Below, piece after piece: positions 14,554-35,392 of a stretch of DNA of 64,000 nucleotides. Position numbers and translations under genes: made by a program. The stretch spans positions 62,001 to 126,000 of the forward strand of contig NZ_PYFX01000004.1 of the NCBI RefSeq assembly GCF_003020115.1, given 5' to 3'. The notes under the pieces are model-generated. The model ran no database searches. It was not told where the DNA came from and worked only from the letters and a program-made list of their open reading frames with translations. This DNA comes from Bradyrhizobium sp. MOS002. GTDB lineage: Bacteria; Pseudomonadota; Alphaproteobacteria; Rhizobiales; Xanthobacteraceae. Within the stretch, counting starts at the first letter, position 1, and each line of letters starts with the position of its first letter.

Positions 14554-14578
14554 AACGGTTCGCGGGGGTGTTCGTTCC
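14554..14578 (-). promoter_or_regulatory. EcfG-type promoter GGAAC-N16-CGTT
   Basis: Read on the minus strand, the -35 GGAAC is at 14578-14574, the spacer is 16 bp and the -10 CGTT is at 14557-14554. This matches exactly the consensus of the general-stress sigma factor EcfG in rhizobia. It points at the alpha/beta hydrolase starting at 14497, leaving a leader of about 50 nt. Confidence 0.65.
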
Positions 14579-26023: not shown

Positions 26024-27412
26024 ATGGCTGAATTCGACGTCGACCTCTTTGTCATCGGTGGCGGTTCGGGCGGCGTGCGTGCCGCCCGCATCGCGGCCGG
26101 TTACGGCGCCCGCGTGATGATCGCGGAAGAGTACCGCATGGGCGGGACCTGCGTGATCCGCGGCTGCGTGCCGAAGAAGCTGTTCGTCATCGGCTCGCAT
26201 TTCCGCCATGAGATCGAGGACGCCGCCGGTTTTGGCTGGACCGTTCCGCCTGCGACCTTCGACTGGCCGACGCTGATCGCCAACAAGGACAAGGAGATCG
26301 CGCGTCTGGAGGCGGCTTATACCGCCAATGTCGAGAAGTCAGGCGCGCAAATCGTCAAGAGCCGCGCGGTGATCGAGGACAAGCACACCGTCCGCCTGCT
26401 CGAGAACGACAAGAAGATCACCGCAAAATACATTTTGATCGCTACCGGCGGCGCGCCCAATCATGGCGCTCCGATTCCCGGCATCGAGCACGTGATCTCC
26501 TCCAACGAGGCGTTTCACCTGACCAGGCTGCCGAAGCGGATCGTGATCCAGGGCGGCGGCTACATCGCGCTGGAGTTCGCCGGCATCTTCGCCGGCTTCG
26601 GCTCCGACGTCACGGTGATCTATCGCGGCGACAACATTCTTCGCGGTTTTGACGAGGATGTTCGCGCCCACGTCCGCGCCGAGATGGAGAAGCAGGGCAT
26701 CACCATCCTCACCGGCTGCACGGTGGCGAAGGTCGATCGCCACCGCGAGGAATTCACCACGCATCTGTCGAACGGATCGAGCCTCGCCTCCGACCAGGTG
26801 ATGTTCGCGATCGGCCGCCATCCCGCCGTCGCCAATCTCGGCCTGGAGAAGGCCGGCGTCGCCATCAACCCGCGGAACGGCGGCATCGCGGTCGACCATT
26901 TCTCGAAGAGCTCGGTCGACAGCATCTATGCGATCGGCGACGTCACCCATCGCTTCAACCTGACGCCGGTCGCGATCCGCGAGGGCCACGCGTTCGCCGA
27001 CACCGTGTTCGGCAAGCGCGAGGTGCAGGTGGATCACGCCAACATCCCGACCGCCGTGTTCTCGCAGCCGGAGGTCGGCACCGTCGGCCTCACCGAGACC
27101 GAGGCGCGCGCGCAATTCAGCCATGTCGACATTTACAAGACCACGTTCCGCCCCATCAAGGCGACGATGTCGGGCCGCGATACCCGCGTGCTGATGAAAC
27201 TCGTCGTCGACGGTTCAACCGATCGCGTGCTCGGCTGTCACATCGTCGGCGATGCCGCGGCTGAGATCACGCAGGCGGTCGCGATTGCAGTGAAAATGAA
27301 GGCGACCAAGGCCGATTTCGATGCGACGATCGCGTTGCATCCGACCGCGTCCGAAGAGCTCGTCACCATGCGCACACCGACCGCACGCCACGTCCGCCAG
27401 GCGGCGGAGTAA
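26024..27412 (+). CDS. gor: glutathione-disulfide reductase
   Basis: A flavoprotein disulfide reductase of 462 residues. The N-terminal FAD motif is VIGGGSGGVRAARIAA, the redox pair is Cys43 and Cys48 in GGTCVIRGCVPKK, the NADPH motif is GGGYIALEFAGIF, and the C-terminal active-site motif is HPTASEE. The first redox-site spacing C-x4-C and the absence of a mercury or lipoamide signature support Gor. It keeps glutathione reduced with NADPH. GGAG precedes ATG 26024 by a suitable distance. It ends 6 bp from the convergent bicupin gene. Confidence 0.94.
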   Translation: MAEFDVDLFVIGGGSGGVRAARIAAGYGARVMIAEEYRMGGTCVIRGCVPKKLFVIGSHFRHEIEDAAGFGWTVPPATFDWPTLIANKDKEIARLEAAYTANVEKSGAQIVKSRAVIEDKHTVRLLENDKKITAKYILIATGGAPNHGAPIPGIEHVISSNEAFHLTRLPKRIVIQGGGYIALEFAGIFAGFGSDVTVIYRGDNILRGFDEDVRAHVRAEMEKQGITILTGCTVAKVDRHREEFTTHLSNGSSLASDQVMFAIGRHPAVANLGLEKAGVAINPRNGGIAVDHFSKSSVDSIYAIGDVTHRFNLTPVAIREGHAFADTVFGKREVQVDHANIPTAVFSQPEVGTVGLTETEARAQFSHVDIYKTTFRPIKATMSGRDTRVLMKLVVDGSTDRVLGCHIVGDAAAEITQAVAIAVKMKATKADFDATIALHPTASEELVTMRTPTARHVRQAAE

Positions 27413-29140: not shown

Positions 29141-30367
29141 CTATGAGGGCGCTGCGACGCCAACGGCCGGGGCGCTCGTCCCCGAGATCGTCGAGTCTGC
29201 GATCCAGCGCGACACGGCGGCGATGTCTTCCGCATTGTCGCGGAAGGCACGAAGCTGGAATTCAGCCGAGCTGCCGCGCTCGACGATGGTGCGGCAGTGT
29301 TCGACCTCGGCGGCGCAGTTCAGCGCGGCGGCGTCTTCGGCGATGTCCTCGATCACGCGGGAGAGCAGCTCGGAGATCTCGACCGGCCCGTCCTTGGAGG
29401 CAAAGATGCAATCGGTGCCGTAGCGCTGGGCGCGCCATTTGTTCTCAACCGCAATCGCGCGTTCGACCGCGGTGACCTCTTTCGACAGATGAGGTCGCAG
29501 GTAGAGATAGCGGGTCAGGCAGCGATACAGCGAGGCAATGGCAACGGCGTCGTCGACGAAGGTGCAGGTATCGGGTGCACGCAGCTCAAGGGTCGGGTGC
29601 TTCATCGAGGGGCGCATGGCCCACCAGATGTGACTTTCATCGGGGATCACGCCCGATCGCTGCAACGCGCCGACATAGTCGTCGTAGTCCCGCCTGCTCT
29701 CGAACAATTCGGGCAGGCCGGTGCGCGGCAGCTCGGAATAGGCGGCCAGCCGATAGCCCTTCAGTCCGGTCTTGTGTGAATTCCAGAACGGGGAAGAGGC
29801 CGACAAGGCGATGAACAGCGGCAGATGCGGCAGCATCGCTCGCATCACCGCCATGCGTTTTTCGGGATCGGGCAGCTGGACGTGTACATGCATGCCGCAC
29901 ATCAGGTTGCGGTGGCCGATGCTGCGCAGATCCTCGATCATCTCCTCGTAGCGCGGCTTCGGGCTCGGTTGCGACATGCGCCAGACCGCGGTTGGATGCG
30001 TGCCACATGCCATGATCACGAAGCCGTATTGTGCCGCGACATTCGCGACTTCCCGGCGCAGGAAGCGAAGCTCTTCGCGCGCGTCGTTGACATCCACGTG
30101 AACGTTAGTGGCGACCTCGAGCTGGGACTGCAGCATCTCCCGCATCGCCTGGCCGCCGGTGGACCAGTTCGCCGATTCGAACAGGGCATTTGGAGTTTCG
30201 ATCGCAACGTCCAAGGTTTGCCGATCGGCGAGGAAATATTCCTCCTCGATGCCGAACGAATATTCCGCGGCCTTGCCGCGTCCGCCGGCCGAGCGAATCA
30301 CGAGGTGCTGACTGTCCTCGGAGGAATCGAGCCGCAGCAGCTTCAAGACGTCTGATGCAAATGTCAT
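29141..30367 (-). CDS. carboxylate-amine ligase, glutamate-cysteine ligase 2 (GCS2/YbdK) family
   Basis: The protein has 408 residues. The ATP/Mg-binding entry motif FGIEEEYFLAD is at about 42-52. MACGTHPTAVW and LMCGMHVHVQLPDP are hallmark stretches of the YbdK/GCS2 fold, and PSMKHPTLELRAPDTC follows. The family makes gamma-glutamyl amides such as gamma-glutamylcysteine, but many members have unknown substrates. ATG 30367 is set by the family start; the frame remains open upstream. Its gene begins 19 bp after the stop of the class II amidotransferase gene, forming a two-gene operon behind an EcfG-type promoter. Confidence 0.88.
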   Translation of the reverse strand: MTFASDVLKLLRLDSSEDSQHLVIRSAGGRGKAAEYSFGIEEEYFLADRQTLDVAIETPNALFESANWSTGGQAMREMLQSQLEVATNVHVDVNDAREELRFLRREVANVAAQYGFVIMACGTHPTAVWRMSQPSPKPRYEEMIEDLRSIGHRNLMCGMHVHVQLPDPEKRMAVMRAMLPHLPLFIALSASSPFWNSHKTGLKGYRLAAYSELPRTGLPELFESRRDYDDYVGALQRSGVIPDESHIWWAMRPSMKHPTLELRAPDTCTFVDDAVAIASLYRCLTRYLYLRPHLSKEVTAVERAIAVENKWRAQRYGTDCIFASKDGPVEISELLSRVIEDIAEDAAALNCAAEVEHCRTIVERGSSAEFQLRAFRDNAEDIAAVSRWIADSTISGTSAPAVGVAAPS

Positions 30368-30386
30368 CGTGCCACCCGGCCAAGTA

Positions 30387-31214
30387 TTACCCGCGGGCGA
30401 TAATCCTTCTGATAGGGGCGGGTTCCGCGTCGGACCCACTGGAAATTGCAAGGTCGAACGGAACAATTTTCGCGCTTTCGGACGCACGTGCGACCAGTGC
30501 GTGATTCGGGGGCACTTCCGTCCAGTCCGTTTCCTTGTCGAAAGGCTCGGACACGACGATAACCTCGCCGCCAGCCTCGCGGAAATAGAGCGTATTGGCG
30601 GCATCGTTGACCGCAACCCGGAAGGCATAGAGATCCCGGCCGTTGGCGATGGCGCTGGTGAAGCGTAACCGCTCACGAAGCTCGCCTTCATTGACGAGGC
30701 CGACGAGGGCTCGCAGCACGCGGTGCGTTGCGCCGAGCGGATCGACGTCGAGCCCCGCGCCCATCATGGCGAGAAACACGGCTTCCGAATCGGTCGTGCC
30801 TGTCCGCGAGGGATAATAGGCATCGGGGATCAGCGCCTCGACCTTGCGCCGCAGGCGGTTCCAGCTGCCGACAAAGCCGTTGTGCATGAACATCCACTGG
30901 CCGCAGGCAAAGGGATGACAGTTCTGCCGCGTCACCGCCGTGCCGGTGGCGGCGCGCACATGGGCGAAGAACAAATGCGAGCGCAGATGGCGGCAGAGGT
31001 AGCGGAGATTCTCGTCCGACCAGGCTGGGCGTGTTTCACGATAAAGACCGGGCTCCGGATGCTCGCCGTACCAGCCGAGTCCAAAGCCGTCGCCATTAGA
31101 GCCCGCCGTCGACTGGAGCGAGCGAATGCTTTGCGCGATCAGCGAATGCTCGGGCTCGGTGACGTAGGGTTCGAAAGACGTGGTCTCGCCCCGGTATGCG
31201 ATCCAGCGGCACAT
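30387..31214 (-). CDS. class II glutamine amidotransferase (EgtC/YafJ-like)
   Basis: The 275-residue protein has an N-terminal nucleophile domain. Met-Cys2 (MCRWIAYRG) exposes Cys as the catalytic residue after Met removal. SNGDGFGLGWYG, HVRAATGTAV and MHNGFVGSW are the conserved glutaminase loops. It hydrolyses a gamma-glutamyl amide bond; YafJ- and EgtC-type proteins act on non-glutamine substrates. ATG 31214 is fixed by the Cys2 requirement. It is the first gene of an operon with the GCS2-type ligase, and its promoter matches EcfG perfectly, suggesting a stress-induced gamma-glutamyl pathway. Confidence 0.9.
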   Translation of the reverse strand: MCRWIAYRGETTSFEPYVTEPEHSLIAQSIRSLQSTAGSNGDGFGLGWYGEHPEPGLYRETRPAWSDENLRYLCRHLRSHLFFAHVRAATGTAVTRQNCHPFACGQWMFMHNGFVGSWNRLRRKVEALIPDAYYPSRTGTTDSEAVFLAMMGAGLDVDPLGATHRVLRALVGLVNEGELRERLRFTSAIANGRDLYAFRVAVNDAANTLYFREAGGEVIVVSEPFDKETDWTEVPPNHALVARASESAKIVPFDLAISSGSDAEPAPIRRIIARG

Positions 31215-31250
31215 AGGAATCCTGTCAGGAGATGCTTGCTGAAATGTATC

Positions 31251-31276
31251 AACGAACCTGACAGGACGATGGTTCC
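31251..31276 (-). promoter_or_regulatory. EcfG-type promoter GGAAC-N17-CGTT
   Basis: On the minus strand, GGAAC is at 31276-31272, the spacer is 17 bp and CGTT is at 31254-31251. It lies entirely between the PaiB-like stop (31307) and the amidotransferase start (31214), leaving a leader of about 30 nt. Confidence 0.68.
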
Positions 31277-31306: not shown

Positions 31307-31933
31307 CTACACCGGAACCGGAATCAACAGCGCAACCTCGCGATCAGCTGCATTCTCGCTCGCTGCGAGACCTCGTCCGACGCCGACGCGGTCGGCCTCG
31401 GGACGGTTCTGGCTCATTTTGCGCTTGCCTTCAAACCGCACGACTGGAATGCGCACGCCGACGATTCCGCGCAGCTGCGCCGCGATGAAATCGGCGGGGG
31501 CATCCGTAACGGCCCACGGCTTGGCCCGCGATCCTTCGTGCCTGTTCGTGAGCCGCGTTACGACGTCGAGCAGGCGCTCGGGCTGCTGGAAAAATTCGAC
31601 GGGGCCGTAGGCATGCACCGCGACGTAGTTCCAGGTCGGCACGACCTTTTCGGTCTCCTGCTTGGTCGCGTACCAGGATGGCGTCACATAAGCGTCGGGA
31701 CCGCTGAAGATCGCCAGCGCATCTCCGATCGGCGGCAGCTTCCATTGCGGGTTGGCCTTCGCCACATGTCCGTACAGCACGCCAGGCTCGCCTTCGCTCT
31801 CATCGAGAAGGAGCGGCAGCGGCGTGGCGACCGGGCCTTCGGTGGTAGCCGTGACCAGACTGGCGAGGCGGGCGCCGTGGATAGTCGCCCGGATGCTCTC
31901 GATGTCGTCTTTGAAGGCGGGAGGGATGTACAT
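31307..31933 (-). CDS. PaiB-like FMN-binding negative regulator family protein
   Basis: A 208-residue split-barrel protein of the PaiB family: MYIPPAFK at the N-terminus, ASLVTATTEGPVATPLPLLLD, LYGHVAKANPQWK, YVTPSWYATK and VPTWNYVAVHAYG are family motifs. Members bind FMN or haem-like ligands and some repress protease or sporulation genes. An 8-bp inverted repeat lies at its own start, which would fit autoregulation. The MocR-type regulator gene is 75 bp upstream on the same strand. Confidence 0.88.
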   Translation of the reverse strand: MYIPPAFKDDIESIRATIHGARLASLVTATTEGPVATPLPLLLDESEGEPGVLYGHVAKANPQWKLPPIGDALAIFSGPDAYVTPSWYATKQETEKVVPTWNYVAVHAYGPVEFFQQPERLLDVVTRLTNRHEGSRAKPWAVTDAPADFIAAQLRGIVGVRIPVVRFEGKRKMSQNRPEADRVGVGRGLAASENAADREVALLIPVPV

Positions 31934-32007: not shown

Positions 32008-33480
32008 TCAGTCCAGTTCGGCGACGGCCTGTGCGAGAAGCCTGCAGCCGCGCTCGATCTGTGCGACCTCCAGTGCCGAATAGCCCATGACGAGGCCGAC
32101 CGTCTTCCGCGGTCGACGAGGTCCGACGAACAGTGCCGAGACGGCATAGATGCCAACGCCCTTTGCATGGGCCGCCTTGATCAACGCGTCCTCACGCTTC
32201 TGCGGCAGGTCATCGAACCACGCCACGATGTGCAGGCCGGCGGCCGTGCCCTCGATCCGGACGCGATCCCCGAACCGGCGGCGAAGCGCGTCGAGCAGCG
32301 CCCGCTGGCGTTCGGCGTTGCGCCGACGCACGCGCCTGATGTGGCCGTCATAGGCGCCGCTTTCGAGCATCGACGCGAGAGCGTGCTGTTCGATCAGCGG
32401 CGTGTGCCGGTCCATGATCTGCTTGGCGGCGGCGAACAGGGATCGCAGGGCGGCGGGCGCCACCAGATAGCCGATCCGCAAGGTCGGGGAGAGCGTCTTG
32501 GAGACGGTGCCGAGATAGATCACGTTGCCGCCGCCGTCGAGCGCGTGCAGCGGCGGGATCGGCCTGGTGTCATACCGATACTCGCTGTCGTAATCGTCCT
32601 CGATCACGAAGGCGTCGTTTGCCCTGGCCCAGGCCAGCAATTGGTGCCGGCGTCCGATCGGCATGACGCCGCCGAGCGGATATTGGTGCGACGGCGTGAC
32701 ATAGGCGAGGCGGGCTTCGACGCCATCGAGCCGCGCTGTCTCCAGTCCATCCACGTCAACGGGAATCGGGATCGTCTCGGCGCCCGTCGCCGCAAAAGTA
32801 TGCCGCGCCATCTGATAGCCTGGATCCTCCATCACGAAGCGGTCGCGGGCGTCGAGCAGCAGGCGCGCGCAGATGTCGAGGCCCTGCTGCGAGCCGTTCA
32901 CGACGACGATCTGATCGACCTCACAGCGGACGCTACGCGATCGCCAGAGATAGCCCTGAAGCGCAGTCCGCAGCCGCAGAGCGCCGCAGGGATCGTCATA
33001 AGCCAGCCGCTCGGGCTTGCGGGCCATCGCAGCGGTCACGGCCTTTTTCCATGCCTGCACCGGGAAATCCGACGGCGCGAGCTCGCCATAGCGGAAGTTC
33101 GCGACGAGGCCGCGCGGCGGCTCGGTCCAGCGCGGCGGGTCCTGAAGCAACCGGTCCCCGAAGGCCGACAGCCGCATTTTCCGCGCCGACGGCTGCGACG
33201 CGACGCGCTTGCGTCCCCGTTCGACGACGGCGCGAGCCACACGCGGCCGCGCGCCACGGCGTGTCTCGATGAAGCCTTCGGCGGTGAGCTGTTCGTAGGC
33301 CACGGTGACGGTCGAGCGCGCCACGCCCATCTCACCGGCCAGCGCGCGCGAGGACGGCAGCAAGCCGTCGATCCCGTACACCCGCGTCATGATCTGATCC
33401 CGCAGGGCTTCGTAAATCTGGCGCGCACCCATGCGGTCGGCACGGGGAACGGGTTTGCTCTTCATCTGGATCATCCACAT
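32008..33480 (-). CDS. MocR/PdxR-type GntR regulator with aminotransferase domain
   Basis: The 490-residue protein has an N-terminal GntR winged helix (ARQIYEALRDQIM, LLPSSRALAGEMGVARSTVTVAYEQL at about residues 18-65). It is fused to a class I aminotransferase fold (VVNGSQQGLDICARLL, EDPGYQMARH, the region around EDDYDSEYRYD, and the PLP Lys in LGTVSKTLSPTLRIGY). Such proteins sense PLP or amino acids and regulate vitamin B6, GABA or taurine genes. The target is unknown here; the PaiB-like gene downstream is a candidate. ATG 33480 is one of three nearby starts (33474 and 33465 also fit). Confidence 0.9.
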   Translation of the reverse strand: MWMIQMKSKPVPRADRMGARQIYEALRDQIMTRVYGIDGLLPSSRALAGEMGVARSTVTVAYEQLTAEGFIETRRGARPRVARAVVERGRKRVASQPSARKMRLSAFGDRLLQDPPRWTEPPRGLVANFRYGELAPSDFPVQAWKKAVTAAMARKPERLAYDDPCGALRLRTALQGYLWRSRSVRCEVDQIVVVNGSQQGLDICARLLLDARDRFVMEDPGYQMARHTFAATGAETIPIPVDVDGLETARLDGVEARLAYVTPSHQYPLGGVMPIGRRHQLLAWARANDAFVIEDDYDSEYRYDTRPIPPLHALDGGGNVIYLGTVSKTLSPTLRIGYLVAPAALRSLFAAAKQIMDRHTPLIEQHALASMLESGAYDGHIRRVRRRNAERQRALLDALRRRFGDRVRIEGTAAGLHIVAWFDDLPQKREDALIKAAHAKGVGIYAVSALFVGPRRPRKTVGLVMGYSALEVAQIERGCRLLAQAVAELD

Positions 33481-33643
33481 TGCACGCTGGCATTCGCCCG
33501 AGCGGACGATGTCGGAAGTGGTTCTAATCCCGTTCGCCGATCGTTTCGAGTAAGCCTTGCCGTAGGGATGAAATGCTGCTTGCGGCCCTGGTCTCACAGC
33601 GCCCTGAGGCCGGCGCACTGTCTCGCATCATGAGTCTCCACTT

Positions 33644-35392
33644 TCACAGATCAATCACGACATCGCTTTGGGGCCGTGAGCAGCAGATCAGGACGTTGCC
33701 GTCCGCCGGTGGATCGAGGGGATCCGGCGCATAATTGACCGCCCCCGCGATCAGCCCGCTCTCGCAATTGTGGCAGACGCCGGTCCGGCACGACCAGCGC
33801 ACGGGAACGTCGCACGCCTCGGCCAGCTCCAGCAGGCTGGCATAGGATGGTCCCCAGCAGACATTGAGGCCACTGCGGGTGAACGAAACCATCGGTCCGG
33901 GGCCGGGGGCGCCGACCGGCGCATGCGCGCGCGTCGGAGGCGCAGCAGCGATGCCCGGTGTCAGCGATGGCTTGCTGCCGAACAGCTCGGTGTGGATGCG
34001 ATCGGGCGGGACGCCCAATGCAGCGAGGCCGGCGGCGAGATCGCTCATGAAGGCGGCGGGGCCGCAGAGATAGAAATCACCGTCACGCGGTACATCGAGC
34101 TGTTCGAGCAGGCGCCGGTCCAGATGTCCGGCGGTGTCGAAATCGACGCCGAGACGATCGGCCGGATCAGGCACGCTGAAGCAGACGTGGCTGTGATGGT
34201 GAGCGAGCCCCGCCAACAGCCCGCGCGCCTCGGCGGCGAACGGATGCTCGCGGCCGTTGCGGGTGCCGTGCAGCCACCAGACGTCTTGCGTTGCGCCTTG
34301 CGCAGCGAGCGCGTGGAGCATGGCGAGCACCGGGGTGACGCCGATGCCCGCGCTTAGCAGGACGACGGGCCTGGCCGCCGGTCGTAGCGTGAAACTGCCG
34401 CGTGGCGCGCCGAGCTCGATGACGTTGCCAGTCTTGAGCTCATCGGCGACATAGACGCTGGCCGCGCCGTGCGTCTCCCGCTTGATGCTGATGCGGTAGG
34501 ACGCGGCGTCGGTGCGGCGCGACAGCGAATAGCTGCGCGTCATCGCAGACGGGCCGAGCCGTACGACCACGAACTGACCGGGCAGGGCGGCCGCTGCGGG
34601 CTGTCCATCGGCGGGTTCGAGGATCAGCGACGTCACGTTGCCGCTTTCCGCGATCTTGCGCGTCACGCGAAAGGAGCGGAATCCGCGCCAGGCGGGAGCT
34701 GGGCTCGCCGACGGTCCAAGCCCGGCGTTTCCCGCGGTCTTGTTGTCCTTCTGCTGCTCGAGCAGCGCCTCGAAGGATCGCTGCCAGCCGCGGCTCAGCG
34801 CCGGAATTCGCAGCGCGCGCTCAAGGCGGTCGCGCGGATGCGGCGGCATGTAGAGCAGCGCATTGATCTCGAACACGCTCATACGCTCGGGCCCGGCTGC
34901 GACCTGATTGATCTCGTCACCGGCCTCGACGTCGCCCTCCTCGATCACACGGAAATAGAATCCGGGCCGGCCGTGCCTGACGAGCAGGGCCGCCATGTCC
35001 GGCTCGTCCATGCGAATGCCGAGCCGGTAGCAGGTGACGCGCGGCTGCGTCACTTCGAACAGGGCAGAGCCGATCCTGTAGCGGTCTCCGATGCACACGT
35101 TGGTGTCGGCGAGGCCCTCGACCGTAAAGTTTTCACCGAATTGGCCATGGACGAGGTTCGATCGACCGAGATGCTCCTGCCAGTATCGATAGGATTCGTC
35201 CTGATAGACGAATACGGCACGATGTTCGCCGCCATGACCGGCCGTATCGCCCTGGCCGTCGCCATCGATGTTGAGCCGGCGCACCCTGCGCGGACCTGTG
35301 ACCTGTGCCTTCCAGATGCCGGTGTGGATGGTCCGGCCCTGCCAGGCGACGTCGCGCGGCAGGCCGACATTGACCGAAAGCAGACGTGCCAT
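33644..35392 (-). CDS. MOSC - ferredoxin reductase - [2Fe-2S] ferredoxin fusion protein
   Basis: A cytoplasmic protein of 582 residues in three parts. Residues 1-165 are a MOSC domain (GENFTVEGL, with the conserved Cys121 in PRVTCYRLG). Residues about 235-475 are a flavin reductase with RSYSLS (286-291), GIGVTPVLAML (349-359) and YLCGPAAFM (441-449). Residues 500-582 are a plant-type ferredoxin with Cys535, Cys540, Cys543 and Cys570 or Cys571. MOSC domains handle sulfur bound to molybdenum cofactor or reduce N-hydroxylated compounds (YiiM type). The fusion suggests a self-contained NAD(P)H-driven MOSC reductase. The substrate is unknown. Confidence 0.9.
   Translation of the reverse strand: MARLLSVNVGLPRDVAWQGRTIHTGIWKAQVTGPRRVRRLNIDGDGQGDTAGHGGEHRAVFVYQDESYRYWQEHLGRSNLVHGQFGENFTVEGLADTNVCIGDRYRIGSALFEVTQPRVTCYRLGIRMDEPDMAALLVRHGRPGFYFRVIEEGDVEAGDEINQVAAGPERMSVFEINALLYMPPHPRDRLERALRIPALSRGWQRSFEALLEQQKDNKTAGNAGLGPSASPAPAWRGFRSFRVTRKIAESGNVTSLILEPADGQPAAAALPGQFVVVRLGPSAMTRSYSLSRRTDAASYRISIKRETHGAASVYVADELKTGNVIELGAPRGSFTLRPAARPVVLLSAGIGVTPVLAMLHALAAQGATQDVWWLHGTRNGREHPFAAEARGLLAGLAHHHSHVCFSVPDPADRLGVDFDTAGHLDRRLLEQLDVPRDGDFYLCGPAAFMSDLAAGLAALGVPPDRIHTELFGSKPSLTPGIAAAPPTRAHAPVGAPGPGPMVSFTRSGLNVCWGPSYASLLELAEACDVPVRWSCRTGVCHNCESGLIAGAVNYAPDPLDPPADGNVLICCSRPQSDVVIDL

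Follow-up and report, generated by a model that had tools for sequence, protein, structure and literature searches.

A Bradyrhizobium amidotransferase-ligase gene pair related to GATII-asnO-ybdK operons: a candidate gamma-glutamyl stress pathway

What do a class II glutamine amidotransferase (GATII) and a GCS2-type carboxylate-amine ligase make when they are encoded side by side behind a stress-type promoter? The question is raised by a locus in the window analysed here, that is, the whole stretch of 64,000 nucleotides (G000:C34:62001-126000) taken from a Bradyrhizobium genome of 7.58 Mb. Members of the GCS2 family couple the gamma-carboxyl of glutamate to amines, and YbdK of E. coli displays weak glutamate-cysteine ligase activity; to our knowledge, YbdK-family ligases have no settled role so far. 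Amidoligases are said to have been treated by Iyer in 2009, and N-acetylglutaminylglutamine amide (NAGGN), an osmolyte whose system comprises asnO, ngs/ngg and an M42 peptidase, reportedly by Sagot in 2010. A first-pass annotation of the sequence had suggested that the pair, an operon with no egtB or egtD in sight, may produce and process a gamma-glutamyl stress metabolite.

The gene pair and its promoter

Both families were recovered over their Pfam cut-offs, with 65.8 bits for the amidotransferase against GATase_4 (cut-off 23) and 191.6 bits for the ligase against GCS2 (cut-off 21). The amidotransferase begins with MCRW, placing Cys2 right behind Met1 as originally noted, and the coordinates confirm the short distance then given between the two genes, which lie on the same strand (Table 1). 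Its residues C2, R87, H111, N112, G113 and D142 were invariant in an alignment of 15 rows, one of them an EgtC; we take R, HNG and D to be the gamma-glutamyl site and C2 to be the nucleophile of class II amidotransferases. Among PDB sequences, 3mdn matched best with 232.8 bits, under the name 'glutamine aminotransferase class-II domain protein', followed by EgtC at 74.3 bits. The ligase exceeded the cut-offs of the YbdK family, with 532.6 bits for NF010039 (cut-off 371), its best model rather than NF010040, and 288.5 bits for TIGR02050 (176.4), and its PDB matches comprised 1tt4 and 1r8g (YbdK; E 1.2e-26 for the latter).

Table 1. Features of the locus, in window coordinates
Feature	Position	Strand	Size	Family or remark
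GATII, EgtC-like class II glutamine amidotransferase / gamma-glutamyl amidohydrolase	30387..31214	-	275 aa	GATase_4
GCS2 / YbdK-family carboxylate-amine ligase	29141..30367	-	408 aa	GCS2, TIGR02050, NF010039
GATII/GCS2 gap	30368..30386	-	19 bp	asnO (~1.77 kb) position in related GATII-asnO-GCS2 operons
EcfG-type promoter GGAAC-N17-CGTT	31251..31276	-		exact pattern match

The superfamilies of the pair, a GCS2 ligase and a class II gamma-glutamyl amidohydrolase, are also those of EgtA and EgtC, and the two genes could be accessories of ergothioneine synthesis, the ligase being EgtA and giving gamma-glutamylcysteine and the amidotransferase being EgtC and cleaving off the gamma-glutamyl group once EgtB has acted. 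EgtC (TIGR03442) is indeed the best NCBIfam match of the amidotransferase, and the invariant residues are shared with an EgtC; the score of 189.9 bits nevertheless falls under the cut-off of 218.65, four scanned relatives (L062, L115, L108 and L268) scored 153-202 bits against the same model, and no EgtA-named model appeared among the matches of the ligase in an NCBIfam profile search at E 0.01. The absence of egtB and egtD claimed at first holds for the window itself but not for the genome, in which both were found, as this reading would expect. However, EgtD occurs in 146/146 genomes of the genus and intact GATII orthologues in 40/146, so that the two distributions are uncoupled, and EgtD and the operon lie on different contigs in G261 and G293, the two genomes with the complete three-gene operon described below. 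Distance alone does not exclude the ergothioneine reading, since Methylobacterium, according to passages of one report, produces ergothioneine via egtBD with scattered homologues of egtA, C and E, egtC and egtA being far from egtBD (PMC4621440). Taken together, the EgtD and EgtB searches and the model cut-offs disfavour such a side-path, which we regard as very unlikely.

The promoter conforms to what we take to be the EcfG consensus, GGAAC-N16/17-CGTT, and its GGAAC begins 62 bp upstream of the GATII ATG. The bare exact pattern is within chance in the window (2 found, 1.41 expected); the second match, GGAAC-N16-CGTT at 14554-14578 on the minus strand, is an occurrence for which the chance expectation is about equal. 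Across orthologous loci, the form GGAAC-N16-18-[CT]GTT was found at most 300 bp upstream of the pair in 32/39 window-type loci as compared to 0.23 expected, and in at most 2 loci in 100 dinucleotide shuffles, although these loci share ancestry and are thus not independent trials. The strict CGTT form was present in 13/39. In 31/39 loci, the distance from the start of the pattern to the ATG is 58-86 bp and the spacer sequence differs; in one more (L070) this distance is 163 bp, and seven of the 39 lack the pattern. The EcfG-type promoter first read from the window alone is thus borne out by its relatives. Between 28600 and 32200, a sigma-70 promoter scan found none, and terminator-like sites were no more frequent than in shuffles. 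Expression of the pair is probably stress-controlled, and the conserved motif suggests that it may depend on EcfG. In B. diazoefficiens, as passages of a previous study state, EcfG controls trehalose synthesis, and an EcfG-controlled compatible solute matters for symbiosis (PMC8092242).

Conservation of the pair and kinship with asnO operons

A full-length window-type GCS2 was identified in 44/146 genomes of the genus, 38 of which carry an intact GATII next to it. With the addition of G349 to these 38, 39 loci were available for measurement, and in all of them (39/39) the two genes adjoin, share a strand and are 16-21 bp apart; the operon is therefore real and conserved in part of the genus. 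The wider expectation, that the genes would be conserved neighbours in Rhizobiales, failed: among the matches listed for 199 genomes, with coordinates compared by eye, adjacency was seen only in the window's genus, and the closest case outside it among these matches (G037) has the two genes ~6 kb apart on opposite strands. Unlinked GATII relatives (L076-L078, L207, L208) had no common neighbour in contexts inspected by eye. Among them, a second, unlinked GATII type (~47-49% identical) lies in two genomes of the genus, G334 and G112 (L207, L208), beside a gene that by eye resembles an Lrp-like regulator. A second YbdK-type ligase, ~43% identical (L204:4636-5823), occurs in six genomes of the genus and in part in a seventh; the single complete locus inspected had no GATII or AsnO in its vicinity. 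Upstream of the window pair are genes for an FMN-binding protein (FMN_bind_2, 31307-31933) and a MocR/PdxR-type regulator (32008-33618), which stay beside the pair in some relatives, not all, and a further gene (33644-35392) fuses MOSC, YiiM 3-alpha, FAD/NAD reductase and 2Fe-2S ferredoxin domains.

Elsewhere in Bradyrhizobium, and in Rhodopseudomonas, the same two families flank a third gene in a GATII-asnO-GCS2 operon. In G261 and G293 the ~1.8 kb between GATII and GCS2 is filled by a 590-aa AsnO, which in the two Bradyrhizobium scanned scored 963.6 and 952.4 bits against TIGR03104, the N-acetylglutaminylglutamine amidotransferase model (cut-off 570.1). These are the only 2/146 genus genomes with AsnO over cut-off; in a third asnO-type locus (G254), only GCS2 is intact, GATII and AsnO both being broken. 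At E <= 1e-100, AsnO was not found in the window's genome, whose own AsnB-like genes (L001, L002) fall short of this limit, and an amide product is therefore unlikely there.

Phylogenetic analysis placed the window pair within this group. In a GCS2 tree of 60 rows, the 21 window-type rows formed one clade (support 100/100) nested in a clade of 33 rows (100/100), the remaining 12 of which all adjoin AsnO or its remains; the GCS2 of L115 joined outside the larger clade (100/95). The GATII tree agreed with weaker support, the window GATII grouping with those of the operons (89/90). Since the window ligase is nested among asnO-linked ones, the simplest and most likely reading, on grounds of parsimony, would be that the window lineage has lost asnO. 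In Bradyrhizobium sp. 199, a window-type pair set among the same neighbours as in the window coexists with a separate AsnO-GCS2 locus, so that loss could also have come after an early duplication or transfer. The kinship of the window pair with the asnO operon is held with high confidence, and in the most likely reading the pair descends from a version of the NAGGN-type pathway that does without Ngs.

If asnO was lost, what is left could be a decaying remnant on its way to disappearance, with a product of no note. GATII is lost or broken in 6/44 window-type loci, with no match at E 1e-20 in G212, G233 and G258 and with remnants in G276, G309 and G329, and two further genomes (G207 and G211) hold GCS2 fragments only; the ligase is thus able to outlive GATII. 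On the other hand, the median pairwise dN/dS over the 39 loci (Nei-Gojobori, 741 pairs for each gene) was 0.089 for GATII and 0.095 for GCS2, indicating that the pair is kept under purifying selection, and the promoter elements are retained while the spacer varies. We consider decay distinctly unlikely.

AsnO loci without Ngs

In a scan of named genomes with the operon AsnO, 311 relatives were found and the best 80 analysed, among which Ngs lies beside AsnO in 54 and not in 26. Of the latter, 24 are alphaproteobacterial; the flanking sequence available for them, brief at some loci, contains GCS2 in 13, GATII in 16, at least one of the two in 18 and neither in 6. In this set, L102 and L120 are duplicates of G293 and G261. 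Within these best 80, the 24 Ngs-less alphaproteobacterial AsnO sequences constituted a single clade (SH-aLRT 99) in a tree built by a quick method. A search for Ngs (TIGR03103) at genome scale yielded a match over cut-off in 0/21 genomes with Ngs-less AsnO (19 alphaproteobacterial and two Pseudonocardia, the window's own genome standing outside the set) vs 4/4 controls; sub-cut-off matches appeared in 4/21, the best of 186 bits in a long frame vs a cut-off of 569.

The promoter pattern was distributed unevenly over the loci drawn from these best 80 of 311. It was present in 5/10 GATII-first operons (0.08 expected) and 5/14 AsnO-first loci without Ngs (0.13 expected), being missing in the other 5/10 and 9/14. 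Canonical asnO-ngs loci had it in 3/29 cases in Rhizobiales, above the 0.18 expected, and in 0/25 in other taxa (0.11 expected).

Some GCS2, 31-100% identical to the operon type, occurred in 20/21 of the genomes with Ngs-less AsnO, and among the six loci with neither GCS2 nor GATII, 4/5 searched genomes had a GCS2 elsewhere. Some of the unlinked copies (~50% identical) adjoin an apparent gshA, so that co-occurrence of AsnO and GCS2 is by itself weak evidence, and alignment columns specific to the operon-type GCS2 were few and uninformative. In four loci (L080, L240, L242 and L244) a YbdK-type GCS2 adjoins an apparent classic glutamate-cysteine ligase, recognized by eye from the protein start in the last three and by a weak adjoining match in G077 for L080.

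Such neighbours are among the points for placing the pair in thiol metabolism, where the ligase would make gamma-glutamylcysteine and GATII would trim gamma-glutamyl thiols under stress. The ligase is of YbdK type by sequence, and a glutathione reductase gene (26024-27412, TIGR01424 over cut-off) lies two genes off on the opposite strand, with counterparts in 9/9 window-type loci with long flanks. It was not found, however, in the four asnO-linked loci searched (L062-L064 and L237), and the recurrent partner of the ligase is an amidotransferase whose substrate is the carboxylate of a dipeptide. We therefore consider a side-path of thiol or glutathione metabolism unlikely.

Beyond this group, combinations of the ligase with AsnO recur. 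AsnO was present in 21/385 alphaproteobacterial genomes, and of 20 loci read, 19 had Ngs and one (L268) had GATII-AsnO-GCS2, making Ngs the rule in the class and the variant an exception. The L268 proteins are 38, 49 and 28% identical to the query GATII, AsnO and GCS2, respectively; its ligase scored 284.9 bits against TIGR02050 (cut-off 176.4) and 396.6 bits against its best model, NF010043, slightly under the cut-off of 409. The order of L268, a second alphaproteobacterial order, has AsnO in 5/174 genomes, that of L268 included: two of the five loci are GATII-AsnO-GCS2, one is GATII-AsnO, one has Ngs and one has neither nearby. The actinomycetes Nonomuraea gerenzanensis, Streptomyces fungicidicus, Embleya and two Pseudonocardia carry GCS2 immediately upstream of AsnO, with no Ngs in the flanking stretches available (~5 kb each side for plasmid records). 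One Pseudonocardia protein (L166:4332-6908, 858 aa) is a fusion, by Pfam, of GCS2 to a circularly permuted ATP-grasp directly upstream of AsnO, and alignment to it identified the same fusion in the same place in L172. The two actinomycete ligases scanned, those of S. fungicidicus and L166, were over the cut-off of NF010041. In Streptomyces NBC_01276, AsnO had neither GCS2 nor Ngs nearby, and a Nitriliruptorales AsnO locus has Ngs. AsnO matches occurred in 88 plasmid records; among the five of these examined, that of Haematobacter carries the canonical trio.

A candidate route to a gamma-glutamyl compound

In NAGGN synthesis, as described in passages of previous reports, Ngs makes N-acetylglutaminylglutamine and AsnO then amidates it (PMC8070244; PMC5563000). 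Where Ngs is missing, the YbdK-type ligase is a plausible source of the dipeptide. The gamma-carboxyl ligation expected of GCS2 and the gamma-glutamyl residues of GATII led us to propose a route of three steps. The ligase would first join an amino acid, for instance glutamine, to glutamate through the gamma-carboxyl of the latter; AsnO would then amidate the free carboxylate of the dipeptide as it does for NAGGN; and GATII, as an EgtC-like gamma-glutamyl amidohydrolase, would strip or recycle the gamma-glutamyl group. In the window lineage, with asnO gone, ligase and hydrolase would make and turn over a non-amidated gamma-glutamyl compound under stress. Our confidence in this chemistry is moderate, as substrates, product and the direction of the GATII reaction are predicted from protein families and gene context. 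We give an even chance to the reading of the pair as a two-gene derivative of a GATII-asnO-ybdK stress operon making a gamma-glutamyl-type dipeptide amide that serves as a compatible solute, the ligase having taken the place of Ngs. The gamma-glutamyl stress operon first envisaged is supported in its ligase-amidotransferase pair, which is under purifying selection, and in its promoter, which is conserved; its egtB/egtD-free setting is not supported.

Like the NAGGN system, the related operons contain AsnO, which exceeded the TIGR03104 cut-off in those scanned, and bring together ligase, amidotransferase and putative hydrolase genes; they also probably serve in stress protection. They differ from it in having a YbdK-type GCS2, an EgtC-like GATII and the EcfG-type pattern with no Ngs over cut-off, and the window lineage differs further in being without asnO. 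As for E. coli YbdK (PDB 1r8g), the window ligase belongs to the same family by sequence, but fits NF010039 best and comes from a context of GATII and AsnO. More tentatively, with somewhat less than an even chance in our judgement, dipeptide-amide osmolytes could be made by a second family of pathways independent of Ngs, in which a YbdK-family ligase forms the dipeptide, AsnO is its partner and GATII serves as the gamma-glutamyl hydrolase. Such pathways would have come together on several occasions, in Rhizobiales, in another alphaproteobacterial order and in actinomycetes; the window would then represent a step of asnO loss leaving a non-amidated gamma-glutamyl stress metabolite. No published link between YbdK/GCS2 and AsnO was found in the titles, abstract openings and passages searched, and an earlier description is possible.

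The proposed pathway would give the YbdK family a role that experiments can probe. It could also account for orphan asnO genes in genomes lacking ngs, such as that of an Aquabacter strain in which, according to an excerpt of its description, asnO is reported although the NAGGN synthesis genes are absent (PMC11059613). Separately, the SigF regulon genes tabulated for Mycobacterium smegmatis include MSMEG_2594, an asparagine synthase, and MSMEG_5590, a carboxylate-amine ligase, which may or may not be relatives of AsnO and GCS2 (PMC4694148). Finally, the pathway suggests a candidate stress solute in nitrogen-fixing and phototrophic bacteria. In excerpts of a phototroph survey, the synthesis of ectoine and betaine has only 'o' entries, taken here to mean absence, for B. 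oligotrophicum and R. pseudopalustris, and dipeptide amides are counted among the solutes that such bacteria might use (PMC7824335).
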